64,000 bases of DNA from Citrobacter youngae ATCC 29220 (GTDB lineage Bacteria; Pseudomonadota; Gammaproteobacteria; Enterobacterales; Enterobacteriaceae). Below are positions 9,515-26,663 of the stretch, piece by piece. Each line of letters begins with the position of its first letter. Positions within the stretch are counted from its first letter, which is position 1. The notes beneath the pieces were generated by a model, which did no database searches, was not told where the DNA came from, and was given only the letters and a program-made list of their open reading frames with translations. Position numbers and translations under genes: made by a program. The stretch lies in assembly GCF_000155975.1 (NCBI RefSeq), contig NZ_GG730299.1:620305-684304 (forward strand), given 5' to 3'.

Positions 9515-9865
9515 TTACGTCCGGGTAATGGGACACGCGGTAAAACGCATCATTTCACCCAGCGTTCGGGTTACCTGTTTCAGCGCGTACTCAACGGCGG
9601 AGACATCGCCCGTCAGTACCACTGCGCCGGTAAATCGGTCGAGAAAACCAATCTCTACCGCCCCGGATTTAGTGGCGATATCGCAGGCGATGATAGAGGC
9701 TTCGCTGGGGGTAATCGTCAAAATCCCGATCGCGGAGACTGAATCCTGTAGCCCCAGCTTCTTGAACAAATCCTTACCTGGGTTGGCGATAAGATGCGCC
9801 AGCGTGACCTGCTTGCCAGGAACATATTCCTGGATCATACGATCCGTTGTGGGCTGCCTTTCCAT
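9515..9865 (-). CDS. pduU: Circularly permuted microcompartment shell protein PduU
   Basis: A 116-residue BMC-domain shell protein with a permuted fold and an N-terminal extension that forms a small beta barrel over the hexamer pore. The sequence [19 protein letters not shown] is characteristic of PduU/EutS proteins. The ATG at 9865 was chosen over an in-frame ATG at 9889, because it shares one base with the pduT stop (TGATG) and gives the family length of 116. Confidence 0.93.
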
Positions 9866-10419
9866 CATCCCTCCACCATCTGCCGCCACATGCTTTCATG
9901 CGGGCGAGGTATAACGGAGCGATAAACCAACAGGCCTTTTTCACCCGCGCTTTCGCTGGCGACCGTCACGGCGTTATTCACATCGGATACATCGCCAGCA
10001 ACGACCATGTAGCACTTGCCGCCAATACCAAATGCCATGTGCACGCGTACCAGCGTAACATTGGACGCTTTAACTGCGCGGTCGGCGGCGCAAATGCAGG
10101 CCGCCACGCTCCACGTTTCAACAATCCCGACGGCCTGACGCTTATCCACGCTGTTTAATCCGCTGATTGCGGGGAGTACGCTGGCATGAATATTAGGCAG
10201 TACCAGACTGTCGACGAGCATATCGCCAGCAAGAGAAGTCCCGGTGGCAATGGCCTGCTGCACGGCGCCTACGTCACCGCCGAGCATGAGCAGAAATTTC
10301 CCCGGACAGATGGTCTTGCTGACCAGCAAATTCACATTTGCGCTTTTTAGCATGGCATCGCCAGCTTCCATCCCTTTGGCAATGCTGGTGAGCTCTAAAA
10401 TCCCTATAGCCTGAGACAT
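9865..10419 (-). CDS. pduT: Iron-sulfur-binding trimeric shell protein PduT
   Basis: A 184-residue shell protein made of two tandem BMC domains (about residues 1-90 and 95-184) that forms trimers with a 4Fe-4S cluster at the central pore. The cluster ligand known from Salmonella, Cys38, is present in TICPGKF. It is thought to pass electrons across the shell to or from PduS, encoded immediately upstream with a 2-base gap. Confidence 0.94.
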
Positions 10420-10421
10420 GA

Positions 10422-11777
10422 TTAACCTCTTATTACCGTGATGGATTGCTCAGTGATTTCGCTGACAATGCCGTCAATACTGGCGTGGACTGGCGCACCT
10501 AATGCGCCTGCCGGCACATCGGCAACGCATTGACCGCGAACAACGTGTTCGCCTTGCTGTACGCATGGGATGGCGCTGGCGCCAATATGTTGGCGTAGCA
10601 ACAGCGTCGTTTTGCTTGTGGGATAATCCGTTTCAACCAGCGGCGCATCGTGATACCAGTCGCTAAGGCCCAGTTTGGCAATCAGTCGCTTAACCGGGAT
10701 GAGTCGGTACTTCGCCATTTCATCCTCCGGGTTCAGCGGTCCTTCATAACGATGGTTGAGCGCGCGTAGTTCGCGTTTAAGCATGCGGTTGATTCGCATC
10801 GGCGATATGCCAACCGGACAGGCCACGCTTTCACAGACATTGCATTCTGAACAGGTCAGTGCCGTGAGCAGCAGCTGCGGTGTGGCCGCCTGCTGATAAT
10901 TAACCGCGCGAACCAGCAGATGCGGTGACAGTTCATGGCCGATCAGATGTCTTGGGCACAAATCCGTACATAAACGGCACTGTTCGCATACGGTTTTTGC
11001 CACTGAAAGCACGGTGCGTTCATCCTGCATTCGCCGCTGAATCAGCGCATGAGATTTTGGTAACACCAGCAGCCCCCCGGTGGTTTTGCTGACGGGGGTA
11101 TCCAGTGAGGTAATCAGACCGCCCATCATCGGACCACCGTTAATAAAACCAGGATCGTCAACGGTTGCGCCACCCGCCAGCGCCAGCACCTCGCGCAGCG
11201 ACATCCCGACAGGAACGGAGAGCGTTACTGGTTTGGCGACTGCCCCGTTGACGGTCAGCGTACGACGGGTAACGGGGTATTGCTGTTCAACCACTCTGGC
11301 GATGTTGAGCACGGTCTGGACGTTATTGACTACCACGCCGACGCTGACCGGCAGCGCGGCAGGCGGAACCCTTCGGCCTGTTGCCATCCAGATAGTCAGA
11401 ACCTCGTCACCCGCCGGGTAGACGTCAGGCAAAATATGTAAGCGAATCCCGGCAGGCAGCAAGGGGGTTAACGCATTGATAGCCTTCTGGTATTTTTCTT
11501 TGAGCGCAATAATACCGGCACTGGCCCCGGTTGCGGTCATGGCATATTGCACGCCGCGAATAAGTCGATCTGCCTGAACGCTCATCAGTTGCTGGTCAAC
11601 TTTAAGCATCGGTTCACATTCCGCTGCATTCACCAGAAACGTATCGACCTGAGCCTGTAATTTTACATGGGCAGGAAAGCCGGCACCGCCGGCCCCAACA
11701 ACGCCAGCAGCCCGAACGCGTTCGCGTATCGTCTGCGCATCATACAGCGTGGGCTCTGCCGTTATAGCTGTCTTCAT
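10422..11777 (-). CDS. pduS: Cobalamin reductase PduS
   Basis: A 451-residue flavoprotein of the RnfC-like family that reduces cob(III)/cob(II)alamin so that PduO can attach the adenosyl group. Two cysteine sets for 4Fe-4S clusters are visible near residues 265 ([12 protein letters not shown]) and 310 ([13 protein letters not shown]). A glycine-rich nucleotide site ([11 protein letters not shown]) lies near residue 28, and a C-terminal SLBB/biotinyl-like region follows. Its ATG overlaps the pduQ stop by four bases. Its neighbour PduT probably exchanges electrons with it. Confidence 0.94.
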
Positions 11778-22566: not shown

Positions 22567-23379
22567 TCAGATGTAGGACGGACGATCGTTTTTCGGCTCT
22601 GAGCCGAGGGTCCCGAGCACGGTTTTACCGATTTCACGGGCGGAGATAACGGCCTGACGAACGGCGCCGGAATCACCGGAAATGACCAGAATGGCTTCGT
22701 TACTGAAGCTGGTGCCATGGGCAGGTGAGCTGTAGGCTACGACTTCCACATTGGCGGATTTCAGCGCAGTATCAGCCATCAGGACACCAACGGAAGCTGG
22801 CGCGCCAACGATGACGCCGCAGGCTCGGCCAATCGGTGCGCCAAAGGCTTTTTCCAGCGCGTAGCTGGCGCGTGCGGTGTATTGCATCTCGATGTGACCG
22901 GCTTCATTGGCATAAACATCGCCAAAGGTGCGATCCAGCTCTTTCAGCGCGACCTCGATTCCGCGCTTCACGTCGGAAACATCGTTGCCGCCGAGAATAA
23001 TCAACGAGCCGTGACCCGCGCCGCCTTTGGTATCACGTGGCAATTCAATACTGACGACTTCCGTATTTGTTGCTTTTACCGCTTCATCGGCGGCCATGAT
23101 GTGCGGACCCGCGCCGGTACGGGCGCCAAGGATGCCAATGGAGCGATAGCGCTTTTCAAGCTTCATCGCGTCCAGTAAGGCGCTGTCTACGTTGGCGATT
23201 ACCAAACCGACGGTATCGCCAATTGCAGTGCCGACAAACTCCGTTAAACTGCAGCTTTTCTCTGCCATAGCCGTTTCTCGTGTTGGATGATTATTTTCAG
23301 GGATAGCCTGCTGTTCCGGTGTCGCCACGCGAGCAATCACCTGCGCCATGATCTGTTCAACCAGTTCATTGCTGCTCAT
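22567..23379 (-). CDS. pduB: Major shell protein PduB (with internal start for PduB')
   Basis: A 270-residue protein with two tandem BMC domains that forms trimeric shell tiles. In Salmonella two forms are made from one gene: full-length PduB and PduB', which starts at Met38. A methionine is present at exactly residue 38 here (MAEKSCSLTEF, codon at 23266-23268). The extra N-terminal segment (SSNELVEQIMAQVIARV) resembles the encapsulation helices of the enzymes, in line with its role in tying shell to core. The ATG overlaps the pduA stop by one base (TAATG). Confidence 0.95.
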   Translation of the reverse strand: MSSNELVEQIMAQVIARVATPEQQAIPENNHPTRETAMAEKSCSLTEFVGTAIGDTVGLVIANVDSALLDAMKLEKRYRSIGILGARTGAGPHIMAADEAVKATNTEVVSIELPRDTKGGAGHGSLIILGGNDVSDVKRGIEVALKELDRTFGDVYANEAGHIEMQYTARASYALEKAFGAPIGRACGVIVGAPASVGVLMADTALKSANVEVVAYSSPAHGTSFSNEAILVISGDSGAVRQAVISAREIGKTVLGTLGSEPKNDRPSYI

Positions 23380-23660
23380 TAGCTAATTCCCTTCGGTAAG
23401 ATTTTTTCTACATCGGTATGAGGGCGTGGGATAACGTGTACGGCTTTCACTTCTCCCACGTTACGTGCTGCGGCAGCACCGGCATCCGTTGCTGCTTTAA
23501 CGGCGCCGACATCGCCGCGAACAATGACTGTTACCAGCCCTGAACCAATTTTTTCGTAGCCGACCAGCATCACATTGGCTGACTTCACCATTGCATCTGC
23601 GGCCTCTATGGCTGCAGTTAAGCCTTTGGTTTCTACCATTCCTAACGCTTCTTGTTGCAT
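23379..23660 (-). CDS. pduA: Major microcompartment shell protein PduA
   Basis: A 93-residue BMC-domain hexamer whose pore admits 1,2-propanediol. It opens [19 protein letters not shown] and carries the pore-forming KIGSGL motif near residue 40. GAGGTC precedes the ATG. It is the first gene of the 21-gene pdu operon, so the operon promoter lies in the 524 bases between it and pduF. Confidence 0.96.
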
Positions 23661-24184
23661 AAAGACCTCGCCTGGGTTGTCCCGATTTTCATGACTATAA
23701 AAAGAAGCGAGGAAAAAGAATGGCTGAGTTGAAAGTAAGCGAGAAAAAATAGTGAGGATACGGTGATATAAAATTGCTGTTGTTTATTTTATCTTTTTGT
23801 TTTTGTTGATATTTTAAAATGTCATTAATATGAATATTTGGTTATGTTAATTCCATATTTACACTTTTGTTCGTGACATTAAAAATAGCATTTGTTATGC
23901 GGAGAAATGAAATTGTGATGGTTGTCGGAAAACATAATTCTGCCAGTCGCAATATTTTATTATTTTGCAAACGTGCTTGTAATAGTGAATGCCCTCGTAT
24001 TCCCGCCTGTTTTAATAAAGGGGATAGCAAGAATTTGCTATCCCAACACGATTTTGAAGAGCATTCCGCCCGTAGATTGCCAACAATTTGCCGGTGCGGC
24101 TTTTTATAGTAAGCCTTGAAGTATTCTACTTGCCAGCAAGGAGTCCGCTGGTAAAGACACGAACTCTGCTTAGAAGGTGTCACA
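23661..24184. promoter_or_regulatory. Divergent control region between pduA and pduF
   Basis: This 524-base stretch separates the divergent pduA and pduF genes and should hold both promoters and the PocR and global-regulator sites known from the Salmonella pdu/cob system. It is AT-rich near pduA. What I can see directly is the perfect palindrome at 24021-24044 and a separate ATAGCA/TGTTAT pair near 23885-23898. I could not place promoter hexamers with confidence, and I see no convincing gene in it. Confidence 0.7.
24021..24044. repeat. Perfect 10-base inverted repeat in the pdu control region
   Basis: GGGATAGCAA (24021-24030) and TTGCTATCCC (24035-24044) are perfect inverted copies around GAAT. 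The inner part, ATAGCAA-N4-TTGCTAT, recurs at 26110-26127 after pocR. It is a candidate operator or a structured RNA element; no T-tract follows directly, so it is not a typical terminator. Confidence 0.75.
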
Positions 24185-24994
24185 ATGAACGATTCACTAA
24201 AAGCGCAATGCATTGCTGAGTTTTTGGGTACCGGGCTGTTTTTGTTTTTTGGCATCGGATGCCTGAGCGCACTTAAAGTCGCGGGTGCCAGTTTGGGATT
24301 GTGGGAGATCTGCATCATATGGGGGCTGGGGATCTCGCTTGCCGTTTACCTGACTGCGGGGATTTCTGGCGCGCATCTCAATCCTGCTATCACCATTGCT
24401 CTGTGGTTATTTGCCTGTTTTCCGGGGCGCAAAGTGTTGCCATACACCGTAGCGCAGGTTGCGGGTGCCTTTGGCGGCGCGTTGCTGGCCTATCTGCTGT
24501 ACGGAAGTTTATTTACCGAGTATGAGTCGGCCCACCAAATGGTGCGCGGCAGCCTTGAAAGCCTGCAACTGGCCAGTATTTTTAGTACTTATCCAGCGGC
24601 GGCGCTCAGCGTCTGGCAGGCTGCGCTGGTCGAAGTGGTGATCACTTCCATTCTGATGGGCATGATTATGGCGCTTACCGATGACGGTAATGGCGTCCCC
24701 AGAGGGCCGTTGGCGCCTTTACTGATTGGCATTCTGGTGGCTGTTCTCGGTGCATCTACCGGGCCGCTCACGGGATTTGCCATGAATCCGGCACGTGATT
24801 TTGGTCCAAAATTGTTCGCATGGATGGCCGGATGGGGTGACGTGGCGATGACCGGGGGACGTGATATTCCTTACTTCATCGTACCGATTGTGGCCCCCAT
24901 TATCGGCGCTTGCGCAGGCGCAGCAATTTATCGTTATTTTATTGGCAAAAATTTACCGTGTAATACGTGTAAGCTGGAGGAAAATGAGAGCTAG
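24185..24994 (+). CDS. pduF: Propanediol diffusion facilitator PduF
   Basis: A 269-residue inner-membrane channel of the aquaporin/GlpF (MIP) family that lets 1,2-propanediol into the cell. Six hydrophobic spans are visible, along with the two pore signatures NPAIT (near residue 67) and NPARD (near residue 200). Those Asp/Arg-type residues at the second motif are as in glycerol facilitators. The start lies seven bases after an AGAAGGTG site. It is divergent from pduA and followed by a strong terminator before pocR. Confidence 0.95.
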   Translation: MNDSLKAQCIAEFLGTGLFLFFGIGCLSALKVAGASLGLWEICIIWGLGISLAVYLTAGISGAHLNPAITIALWLFACFPGRKVLPYTVAQVAGAFGGALLAYLLYGSLFTEYESAHQMVRGSLESLQLASIFSTYPAAALSVWQAALVEVVITSILMGMIMALTDDGNGVPRGPLAPLLIGILVAVLGASTGPLTGFAMNPARDFGPKLFAWMAGWGDVAMTGGRDIPYFIVPIVAPIIGACAGAAIYRYFIGKNLPCNTCKLEENES

Positions 24995-25061
24995 CTTCAC
25001 GAAGTAAGTTTATTTTTGAACAGTAAAAACTGTTTTCGTGATCCGGTTTCCTGAACCGTCC

Positions 25062-25091
25062 AAAAAGTCTCCCAAGAATGGGAGACTTTTG
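25062..25091 (+). terminator. Rho-independent terminator after pduF
   Basis: AAAAAGTCTCCC pairs with GGGAGACTTTT (25080-25090) around the loop AAGAAT. The hairpin has a GC-rich top, an A-run before it and a T-run after it, so it may work in both directions. It sits 68 bases after the pduF stop. Confidence 0.85.
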
Positions 25092-25101
25092 TTATGTTCA
25101 A

Positions 25102-25116
25102 TGATGACTTTCATCA
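25102..25116. promoter_or_regulatory. Small palindrome upstream of pocR
   Basis: TGATGA and TCATCA form a perfect inverted repeat with a 3-base spacer, about 80 bases before the pocR start. Its position fits an operator for the pocR promoter, but I do not recognise the binding protein. Confidence 0.35.
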
Positions 25117-25197
25117 GTGCTCAGGAAAGCGAGATGAAAACGAATGTGTAAATAATATGTTTTATTTATAACAATAAATTAACTGAGAGGTTTTATC

Positions 25198-26109
25198 ATG
25201 ATTTCTGCGAGTGCCCTGAACTCAGAACTCATTAATAAAATCGCACAGGATTTTGCACAGGCCACCAGTCTGGCTGTTGTGGTTGTCAATATTCACGGTG
25301 ATGAAATTTCTGAGCTTTTTAATTTCACCCCTTTTTGTCAGTTGATGCGTCAGCATCCTCAGCACAGTACGCGTTGCCGTATGAGCGACCGGTGCGGCGG
25401 GTTGGAAGCTTCAAAATCCGATCAACCCTGTATCTATCGCTGCCACGCGGGGCTTACCGACTTCTCAATTCCGCTGGTCATAGCGGGTCACCTGGTTGGG
25501 TTCGTATTGTGCGGTCAGGTACGCTTAAGTAACGATGTCGGCCTGGTTGATATTCTGAACGTTGACGACCGCTGGCAGGCCGATCCCGAACTGCTAAGTG
25601 AATTTCGTAATGTGCCGGAGATGGACTATTCGCGGGTCATCGCCTCGGCGGATCTCCTGAAGCTCATCGTAGAGAATTGCCTTAAAAAACAACTCAATTT
25701 TGTGGTTATCAAAGACAACCCACAGCAGGCAGAGCCGGTACGCGCTAACCGAACGCCGAATCCTCACGACAGCAAAATGAAAAAAGCCCTGCGCTATATA
25801 GACGCGCATTTGTCAGACGAGCTGCGTCTGGAGGATGTTGCCTCGCACGTTTACCTTAGCCCTTACTATTTCAGTAAGTTGTTCAAAAAATATCAGGGTA
25901 TCGGGTTTAATGCCTGGGTAAATCAGCAGCGAATGGCGAGTGCCAAAGAGTTGCTCTGTCATAGCGACTGGAGTATAGCCAGCATTGCGCGTAATTTAGG
26001 CTTTTCGCAAACCAGTTATTTTTGCAAAGTGTTCCGCCAGACGTATCAGGTTACGCCGCAGGCTTTTCGCCAGCAAATAAATGTCATTTCACGCGGTGAG
26101 TCCGCTTAA
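25198..26109 (+). CDS. pocR: AraC-family activator PocR of the pdu and cob operons
   Basis: A 303-residue transcription activator that responds to 1,2-propanediol and switches on both the pdu and cob operons in Salmonella. The N-terminal sensory (PocR) domain, about residues 8-165, carries several cysteines (CQLMR, CRMSDRCGG, CIYRCHAG). The C-terminal part, about 195-297, is a double helix-turn-helix AraC domain (LEDVASHVYLSPYYFSKLFKK, then IARNLGFSQTSYFCKVF). ACTGAGAGG precedes the start. It stands between the two operons it controls. Confidence 0.95.
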   Translation: MISASALNSELINKIAQDFAQATSLAVVVVNIHGDEISELFNFTPFCQLMRQHPQHSTRCRMSDRCGGLEASKSDQPCIYRCHAGLTDFSIPLVIAGHLVGFVLCGQVRLSNDVGLVDILNVDDRWQADPELLSEFRNVPEMDYSRVIASADLLKLIVENCLKKQLNFVVIKDNPQQAEPVRANRTPNPHDSKMKKALRYIDAHLSDELRLEDVASHVYLSPYYFSKLFKKYQGIGFNAWVNQQRMASAKELLCHSDWSIASIARNLGFSQTSYFCKVFRQTYQVTPQAFRQQINVISRGESA

Positions 26110-26128
26110 ATAGCAATATTTTGCTATT
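26109..26128. repeat. Second copy of the ATAGCAA palindrome, just after pocR
   Basis: AATAGCAA (26109-26116) and TTGCTATT (26121-26128) are perfect inverted copies around TATT, beginning at the last base of the pocR stop codon. The core matches the palindrome at 24021-24044. ATTTTT follows five bases later, so a weak pocR terminator is an alternative reading. Confidence 0.7.
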
Positions 26129-26424
26129 GCCGATTTTTGATATCGGGCGTTATGTCAGAACAGCAGTCAATAAATTGTCATAGCGCAACAAAATAATAGT
26201 ATTAGAGGGATAAACTGCACCAGTTTTTATTTTTGTGATGAGATACAGTGTCTGTGTGAATGACTTTCTTTATTCTTTACTGACACTTTCATTCAAAATG
26301 CAAAGATATGAATAAGTGGGGTTATGGCCAGAGAATTGGCTACATAAACCCGGAAAATTATTAAATTGAATTTTTGTCATGAGGTTGTGAATTTACCTCA
26401 TAACAGAGAGCTTAATTAATCGGC
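26129..26424 (+). promoter_or_regulatory. Upstream control region of the cob operon
   Basis: About 300 AT-rich bases between pocR and the riboswitch. In Salmonella the cob promoter and its PocR and CRP sites lie here. A short inverted repeat, CCGAT/ATCGG (26130-26146), is visible. I could not place the promoter hexamers reliably, and I see no gene in it. Confidence 0.55.
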
Positions 26425-26590
26425 TCTTGAGCTGACAGGTTTGCCACATTTGTGGCAGGGAAGGGGGTGAGAATCCCCCGCAGCCCCCGCTGCTGTGATG
26501 CTGACGACCCCGTATTGACCACTGATCGCAAGATTGGGAAGGACGGGTGAGGATGACGCTAAGCCAGAAGACCTGCCTGTCAGTGACTAC
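26425..26590 (+). promoter_or_regulatory. Cobalamin (adenosylcobalamin) riboswitch
   Basis: The conserved B12 box is present as AAGCCAGAAGACCTGCC (26561-26577). The closing stem P1 is formed by CTGACAGG (26432-26439) and CCTGTCAG (26576-26583). Between them are the expected landmarks, including GCCACATTTGTGGCAGGGAA and a GGGGGTG/CCCCC hairpin. It lies in the leader of cbiA and should turn down the whole B12 operon when coenzyme is plentiful. Confidence 0.95.
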
Positions 26591-26663
26591 CAACAACTTC
26601 GGTGGGAAGTGGGTTGCTCAGATGCATACAGTCGGGAGACTGGGTATCTCTACACCCCTACCA

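Follow-up and report, generated by a model that had tools for sequence, protein, structure and literature searches.

A symmetric 18-bp element flanking pduF-pocR in Citrobacter youngae is very probably the distal PocR site of the pdu and cob promoters

Results and Discussion

The 64,000-nucleotide stretch of Citrobacter youngae ATCC 29220 analyzed here (contig NZ_GG730299.1, positions 620,305 to 684,304; the window) contains two exact copies of the palindrome ATAGCAA-N4-TTGCTAT, one in the control region between the divergent genes pduA and pduF (24024-24041) and one in the control region between pocR and the cbi-cob operon (26110-26127). These palindromes are very probably operator sites of the regulator PocR, namely, the distal box I of Ppdu, with pduF on its other side, and the distal box I of Pcob. 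An earlier note on this DNA had proposed a shared operator, perhaps for PocR, and that proposal is supported by conservation of the arms, by the confinement of the exact copies, and by the fit to the boxes published for Salmonella Typhimurium. Binding of PocR to these Citrobacter copies is predicted from sequence.

Two exact palindromes in two control regions

In its longer hairpin form, the first palindrome is GGGATAGCAAGAATTTGCTATCCC (24021-24044). The second, with its flanks, is AATAGCAATATTTTGCTATT (26109-26128), the first A of which is the final base of the pocR stop codon; the 18-bp cores are listed in Table 1. Both copies lie at the two ends of pduF-pocR, as the earlier note had described, and the open reading frames and the position of a cobalamin riboswitch bear out their placement, the first in the gap from which pduA and pduF diverge and the second in the gap that separates pocR from the cbi/cob leader. 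Across the whole genome (5,154,159 bases), a scan returned the 2 exact copies, no copies with one mismatch, and 10 places with two mismatches; neither exact copy lies outside the two control regions. About 0.012 exact copies would be expected in 5.15 Mb under independent bases at the G+C content of the window, compared with the 2 found, which are 2.1 kb apart. Patterns loosened by mismatches behaved differently. With up to two mismatches, there were 12 places genome-wide versus 21 for the reversed control, and with up to three mismatches, there were 5 matches within the window versus 2.76 expected, which is not a significant excess. Since the loosened patterns show no excess over the controls, only the exact pattern or one relaxed to purines and pyrimidines (R/Y) is informative.

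Correspondence with the published PocR boxes

The work of Teng et al. (2024; PMC11264322), relaying Rondon and Escalante-Semerena (1996), describes PocR boxes of 20 and 48 bp lying 52 bp apart at Pcob of S. Typhimurium and recounts the in vitro binding of PocR to that promoter in the 1996 work. It gives potential Ppdu boxes, 215 bp apart, whose similarity to their cob counterparts is 80% and 56%, and it places a -35 element 9 bp after cob box II. It also reports that removal of box I caused a significant loss of promoter function, both boxes being needed, and that box I alone behind a constitutive promoter led to repression by PocR in Escherichia coli. In a genome that we take to be that of S. 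Typhimurium LT2, every combination of 320 and 300 start positions near the palindromes was tried for the two box sets (96,000 placements). Nine placements reached 75% and 52%, all within 5 bases of the palindromes, and a single placement of the 96,000 gave exactly 16/20 and 27/48 at the published gaps. That placement sits on both palindromes, box I of cob and box I of pdu each comprising a palindrome and 2 additional bp. Of the Ppdu 48-mers, the one that best matches cob box II is found exactly 215 bp from the pdu box, and the cob 20-mer AATAGCAATATTTTGCTATT is identical in the window and in the genome taken for LT2. We assign the palindromes to PocR box I because the geometry and similarities of the boxes, the shared 20-mer, and the box I results of Teng et al. 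agree. Box I in the 1996 footprint should read GAATAGCAATATTTTGCTAT or fall within a few bases of it.

Conservation across pocR loci

Relatives of PocR yielded 71 named loci, of which 57 (L035 to L091) were analyzed by gene position. The other 14 (L092 to L105; 26 to 46% identity and, by title, outside the Enterobacterales) were left out of the positional counts; two of them, L098 and L105, have one match each to the palindrome at two mismatches. The counts cover 55 pduA-pduF regions, L086 and L091 being excluded as lacking pduA-pduF, and 49 pocR-cbiA regions, with eight loci excluded for having no cbiA within 1,200 bases of pocR (L062, L064, L065, L070, L071, L074, L082, and L083). When up to two mismatches were allowed, the surroundings of pocR contained the palindrome in Citrobacter, Salmonella, Escherichia, Kosakonia, Phytobacter, Yersinia, part of Klebsiella, and others. 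The relaxed consensus over the 57 loci is ATRRCAA-N4-TTGYYAT; sites were scored as the number of matches over its 14 specified positions, and the motif read backwards served as the control.

There were 84 full matches to this consensus, 47 in the 55 pduA-pduF regions (36 loci) and 37 in the 49 pocR-cbiA regions (35 loci). The 55 pduF-pocR gaps had none, nor did the remaining locus sequence (581,280 bases), and the reversed control gave none in any of these. Sites scoring at least 12 were present in 54/55 pduA-pduF regions and 44/49 pocR-cbiA regions (reversed control, 2/55 and 1/49); other locus sequence held 12, versus 7 for the reversed control. The distal pdu site, at a score of at least 12, lies 346 to 373 bp upstream of pduA in 38 of the 55 regions and farther off in others. 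In motif-blind MAFFT alignments, the mean identity of the first-site arms to the window was 0.83, compared with 0.39 and 0.57 for the adjoining 18-base flanks (48 loci, near-duplicates removed), and that of the second-site arms was 0.80, compared with 0.45 and 0.56 (30 loci). The arms are thus conserved while the flanks drift in both control regions, which was the pattern that the earlier note had named as a check on a shared operator. By conservation, the first site ranks 23rd of 507 placements; the second ranks only 137th of 589 because the riboswitch in the same region is better conserved still.

In the pduF-pocR gaps, 21 of 55 loci together had 24 matches scoring 12, versus 1 for the reversed control, and none scoring 13. 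These were not counted as PocR sites, nearly all of them being one terminator-like sequence, ATGGGAGACTTTTGYTAT, which in the window occupies 25078-25095 as part of a hairpin at 25063-25090.

Association of the motif with PocR across genomes

Among 295 genomes of the family, 33 had a PocR match at an E value of 1e-60 or better, one of them with internal stops. The strict relaxed motif was found in 31 of these 33 genomes (65 places; reversed control, 12) and in 65 of the 262 genomes without a PocR match (88 places; reversed control, 92); all are hand sums. The motif excess is tied to the presence of pocR, since only the genomes with a PocR match exceed the reversed control. In eight pocR genomes, partly chosen for their high counts, 18 of 29 motif places were at pocR; with the addition of G179, which has no PocR match, the figure was 18 of 31, with 13 elsewhere. 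Eight of these 13 places were inspected by eye, and these had no common neighbor and offered no convincing further PocR target; five overlap an open reading frame of at least 90 residues, and three (L110, L115, and L118) do not. The extra place in the present genome (G000; L124) overlaps no open reading frame.

Three Escherichia loci without a cbiA match (L062, L064, and L065) lack the cob-side site, with best scores of 10 to 11, and keep a full pdu-side site. The genes 3' of pocR in these loci are presumably cobU-cobS-cobT. Locus L070 resembles them, with a pdu-side score of 13 and a cob-side score of at best 10. The present genome also encodes a PocR paralogue, 43% identical, at 9710-10450 on the minus strand of L123 (G000:C10:2120000-2139000), beside genes that by eye we take to encode a cobA-type methyltransferase, a cobO/btuR product, and fumarase. 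No PocR-type site scoring at least 13 was found in the 19 kb surrounding the paralogue, the best score there being 12.

Several points weigh against the assignment of these sites to PocR. Proteins of the AraC family are not generally known to recognize one symmetric 18-bp site. The loci that supplied the relaxed motif also supplied its counts, and the controls, not the raw counts, therefore carry the argument. Five of the 49 pocR-cbiA regions have no site scoring at least 12, namely, the partial locus L091 and four loci in which cbiA is present (L046, L047, L063, and L084), and 11 of the 29 motif places in the eight pocR genomes are away from pocR. As regards the published boxes, the letters of box I were deduced from published numbers and are not a quotation of the 1996 footprint. 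The symmetric 20-mer itself is 85% (17/20) identical between pdu and cob, so that the published 80% needs a shift of one base; the best box II match is barely ahead of the next (27 versus 26 of 48), and CTGCAC, the hexamer 9 bp past the deduced box II, does not clearly resemble a -35 element.

Some loci depart from the common arrangement. L046 and L047 have a possible decayed remnant of box I, ATATCAATATCTGGCAAT (11/14), just 3' of the pocR match, and L063, which has cbiA, has no recognizable box I in its pocR-cbiA region. Two Tolumonas loci (L082 and L083) have no site scoring at least 13 in the pdu region. In L086 (Aeromonas sp. strain RU39B), PocR is encoded beside cbiA, and no match to pduA, pduB, or pduF was found in the examined locus; it has two sites scoring 12, 75 bp apart, like the cob array elsewhere.

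Arrays of sites and a 22-bp deletion

The palindromes are not a lone pair; both copies belong to longer arrays. On the cob side, a second CAA-N4-TTG site follows the first by 75 to 78 bp in 36 of the 44 loci that have a first site (the remaining 8 have none at 40 to 109 bp), a spacing in keeping with the published 20-52-48 bp geometry, and in the Yersinia loci L078 and L079, both cob copies are full matches. Box II contains this second, weaker copy of the element. The pdu region holds up to three good copies, as in L066 and L068, where full matches lie upstream of pduA at 167, 290, and 368 bp; in the window, the distal copy is the only strong one. The proximal position, 103 bp upstream of pduA, has a match of at least 10 in 23 of 36 loci, and sites scoring 13 to 14 occur at 101 to 119 bp in L063, L072, L080, L081, L084, L085, and L088. 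The middle position, at 287 bp, has a match of at least 10 in 20 of 36 loci, with scores of 13 to 14 at 286 to 291 bp in L035, L056, L061, L066 to L069, and L089. Within the window alone, the degenerate copies at 26164-26181, 23946-23963, and 23763-23780 are unremarkable, 28 plus-strand places scoring 11/14; they are taken as sites because relatives show them. Two more positions upstream of pduA, at 168 and 221 bp, are not claimed for the window, the matches there being mostly weak and the reversed control giving similar ones elsewhere.

The starts of the two cob sites are 54 bp apart in this genome and 76 bp apart in the other 16 of the 17 genomes of the genus. The difference reflects a 22-bp deletion relative to L035, near two helical turns, located between box I and the box II core (window 26129-26163). 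The deleted stretch includes TATAAAATGAAA, present in six of eight compared relatives. The sequence CAACAAAATAATA, conserved 3' of the second cob site, could represent yet another copy of the element, now decayed, 18 or 21 bp on; it scores a weak 9 as a copy, and similar conserved positions are seen with the reversed control.

TABLE 1 Putative PocR sites and neighboring features of the window
Feature	Position	Strand	Remarks
Distal pdu site (pdu box I), ATAGCAAGAATTTGCTAT	24024-24041		Exact motif; 363 bp from pduA ATG, 143 bp from pduF ATG
Distal cob site (cob box I), ATAGCAATATTTTGCTAT	26110-26127		Exact motif; directly 3' of pocR stop codon
Second cob site (box II core), CAGTCAATAAATTGTCAT	26164-26181		Score 11/14; 54 bp from box I
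Expected cob box II, 48 bp	26158-26205	+	LT2-type placement transferred via the second site
Middle pdu site, degenerate, GTCGCAATATTTTATTAT	23946-23963		Score 11/14; 78 bp from distal site
Proximal pdu site, degenerate, GTGATATAAAATTGCTGT	23763-23780		Score 10/14
Expected pdu box II	about 23761-23808		Predicted; contains the proximal pdu site
pocR	25198-26109	+	PocR sensory domain and AraC-type DNA-binding domain; Pfam PF10114, PF00165 (two stretches), PF12833
pduF	24185-24994	+	Open reading frame; conserved neighbor in relatives
pduA, presumably first gene of the pdu operon	23379-23660	-	Open reading frame; conserved neighbor in relatives
Cobalamin riboswitch, cbi/cob leader	26420-26594	+	Rfam RF00174, 108.2 bits

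We take pduF to encode the propanediol diffusion facilitator. The sequence CGATTTT(T)GA stands on the plus strand 3' of both palindromes, 7 and 3 bases on (24049-24057 and 26131-26140), and most of the CGATTTT bases are strongly conserved at the pdu site; it might be a second contact. In the pduF-pocR gap, Rfam reports the small RNA STnc230 (86.6 bits) at 25054-25137 on the minus strand, overlapping the terminator-like hairpin at 25063-25090.

Alternative explanations

The sites might be read by a regulator other than PocR, such as integration host factor (IHF), CRP, ArcA, Fis, or an unknown symmetric repressor. IHF is said to act on the pdu/cob regulon, and its consensus resembles the motif, the two having a CAA-N4-TT core in common. 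Fis is reported to activate pocR in LT2 through a binding site within the gene (PMC3662779). The PocR motif differs from that consensus in its dyad symmetry and in having R rather than T before CAA, the R being part of the scoring, and the exact IHF consensus WATCAANNNNTTR, the one consensus among these regulators that was compared, matches neither control region of the window. The T of IHF is absent in 126 of 127 sites, which is a weak argument because the score itself asks for R at that position. A global regulator would, moreover, place sites genome-wide, yet genomes without pocR show no excess. Teng et al. report that it is PocR that acts on the matching box. We regard another regulator as very unlikely.

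The earlier note had given as its alternative that the palindromes are two unrelated hairpins acting as terminators, and leader structures in RNA may be considered along with these. The window copies do fold as RNA (on the plus strand, -16.2 kcal/mol with z of -4.92, and -14.7 kcal/mol with z of -2.27), and the first copy, read on the minus strand and then followed by CTTTATTAAA, passes a crude terminator scan, although that scan found 3 in the region versus 4.0 expected in shuffles. Among 71 distinct sites, pairs 3-16 and 4-15 are still possible in 58 and 61, respectively, if G-U is counted. Against this, 13 of the 71 sites cannot form pair 3-16 and 10 cannot form pair 4-15, with 27 and 18 more having only G-U, and this pairing pattern is as expected from a free choice of R/Y on each arm. 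Conservation does not reach the outer GGG/CCC of the first copy, no U run directly follows either stem on the plus strand, a minus-strand terminator would probably face no known transcript, and several copies of the site recur within one region. An intrinsic terminator was therefore rejected on the broken stem pairing in part of the relatives, the poor conservation of GGG/CCC, and the lack of an immediate plus-strand U run, and the evidence from pairing and conservation makes RNA hairpins of any kind very improbable. Pair 4-15 does lean toward symmetry, with 22 A-T and 21 G-C versus 9 A-C and 18 G-T in the 71 sites, and this lean might fit the preference of a symmetric reader. Coincidence between two unrelated short palindromes, for which the lack of a significant excess at three mismatches in the window might speak, is refuted by the conservation tests and has a negligible probability, given the small number of exact copies expected by chance and the recurrence of the sites at fixed places in many loci.

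Proposed mode of action of PocR

In the presence of propanediol, PocR, the AraC-family activator encoded between the two sites, would switch on Ppdu and Pcob. It would bind box I together with the promoter-proximal box II, which would hold the weaker copy of the element, and with both boxes occupied it would recruit RNA polymerase. The element recognized would be the symmetric 18-bp ATRRCAA-N4-TTGYYAT with an A/T-rich center. This scheme follows the account of Teng et al., in which propanediol-sensing PocR occupies both boxes and brings RNA polymerase to Pcob and Ppdu.

The symmetry of the element suggests two equivalent DNA-reading units per site, which may be supplied by a PocR dimer or by a single monomer through its two helix-turn-helix units. 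The fixed spacing would presumably keep the boxes on one helical face, and, judging from that spacing, the DNA between the boxes may loop. It is possible, if rather doubtful, that PocR reads the 18-bp palindrome as a unit, that such units form arrays of two to three, that far-upstream PocR loops to PocR at the promoter, and that the 22-bp deletion, of about two turns, is tolerated with the helical face kept. PocR shares with the AraC-family systems of araI1-I2 and the marbox a two-helix AraC DNA-binding domain and likewise has two boxes per promoter, whereas its element is a symmetric 18-bp palindrome rather than an asymmetric half-site in direct repeat. Teng et al. also call the DNA pattern of PocR distinct from those of other AraC-family activators.

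Relation to the known system and implications

The PocR site is already known, and the symmetric consensus and the array are a refinement of a known system, not a new one. The window shares with S. Typhimurium the regulator, the two promoters, and the place of the boxes and differs in the distance between the starts of box I and the box II core, which is 54 bp and not 76. The earlier note named no published motif of this form; the site itself proved to be the known PocR box I, whereas its description as a palindrome was indeed not found in print. As far as its accessible text goes, PMC11264322 does not describe the symmetric consensus or the extra copies for the S. Typhimurium boxes. A palindromic PocR consensus was likewise not found in titles and abstract openings, which is weak evidence of absence because subscription papers and supplements were mostly beyond reach, and the same holds for the extra copies and their spacing.

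PocR couples the synthesis of vitamin B12 to the use of propanediol. The symmetric consensus would explain why box I is alike at cob and pdu even though box II looks dissimilar. As a consensus that holds across genera, it is directly testable by mutation, and it allows PocR targets to be predicted in other genomes.

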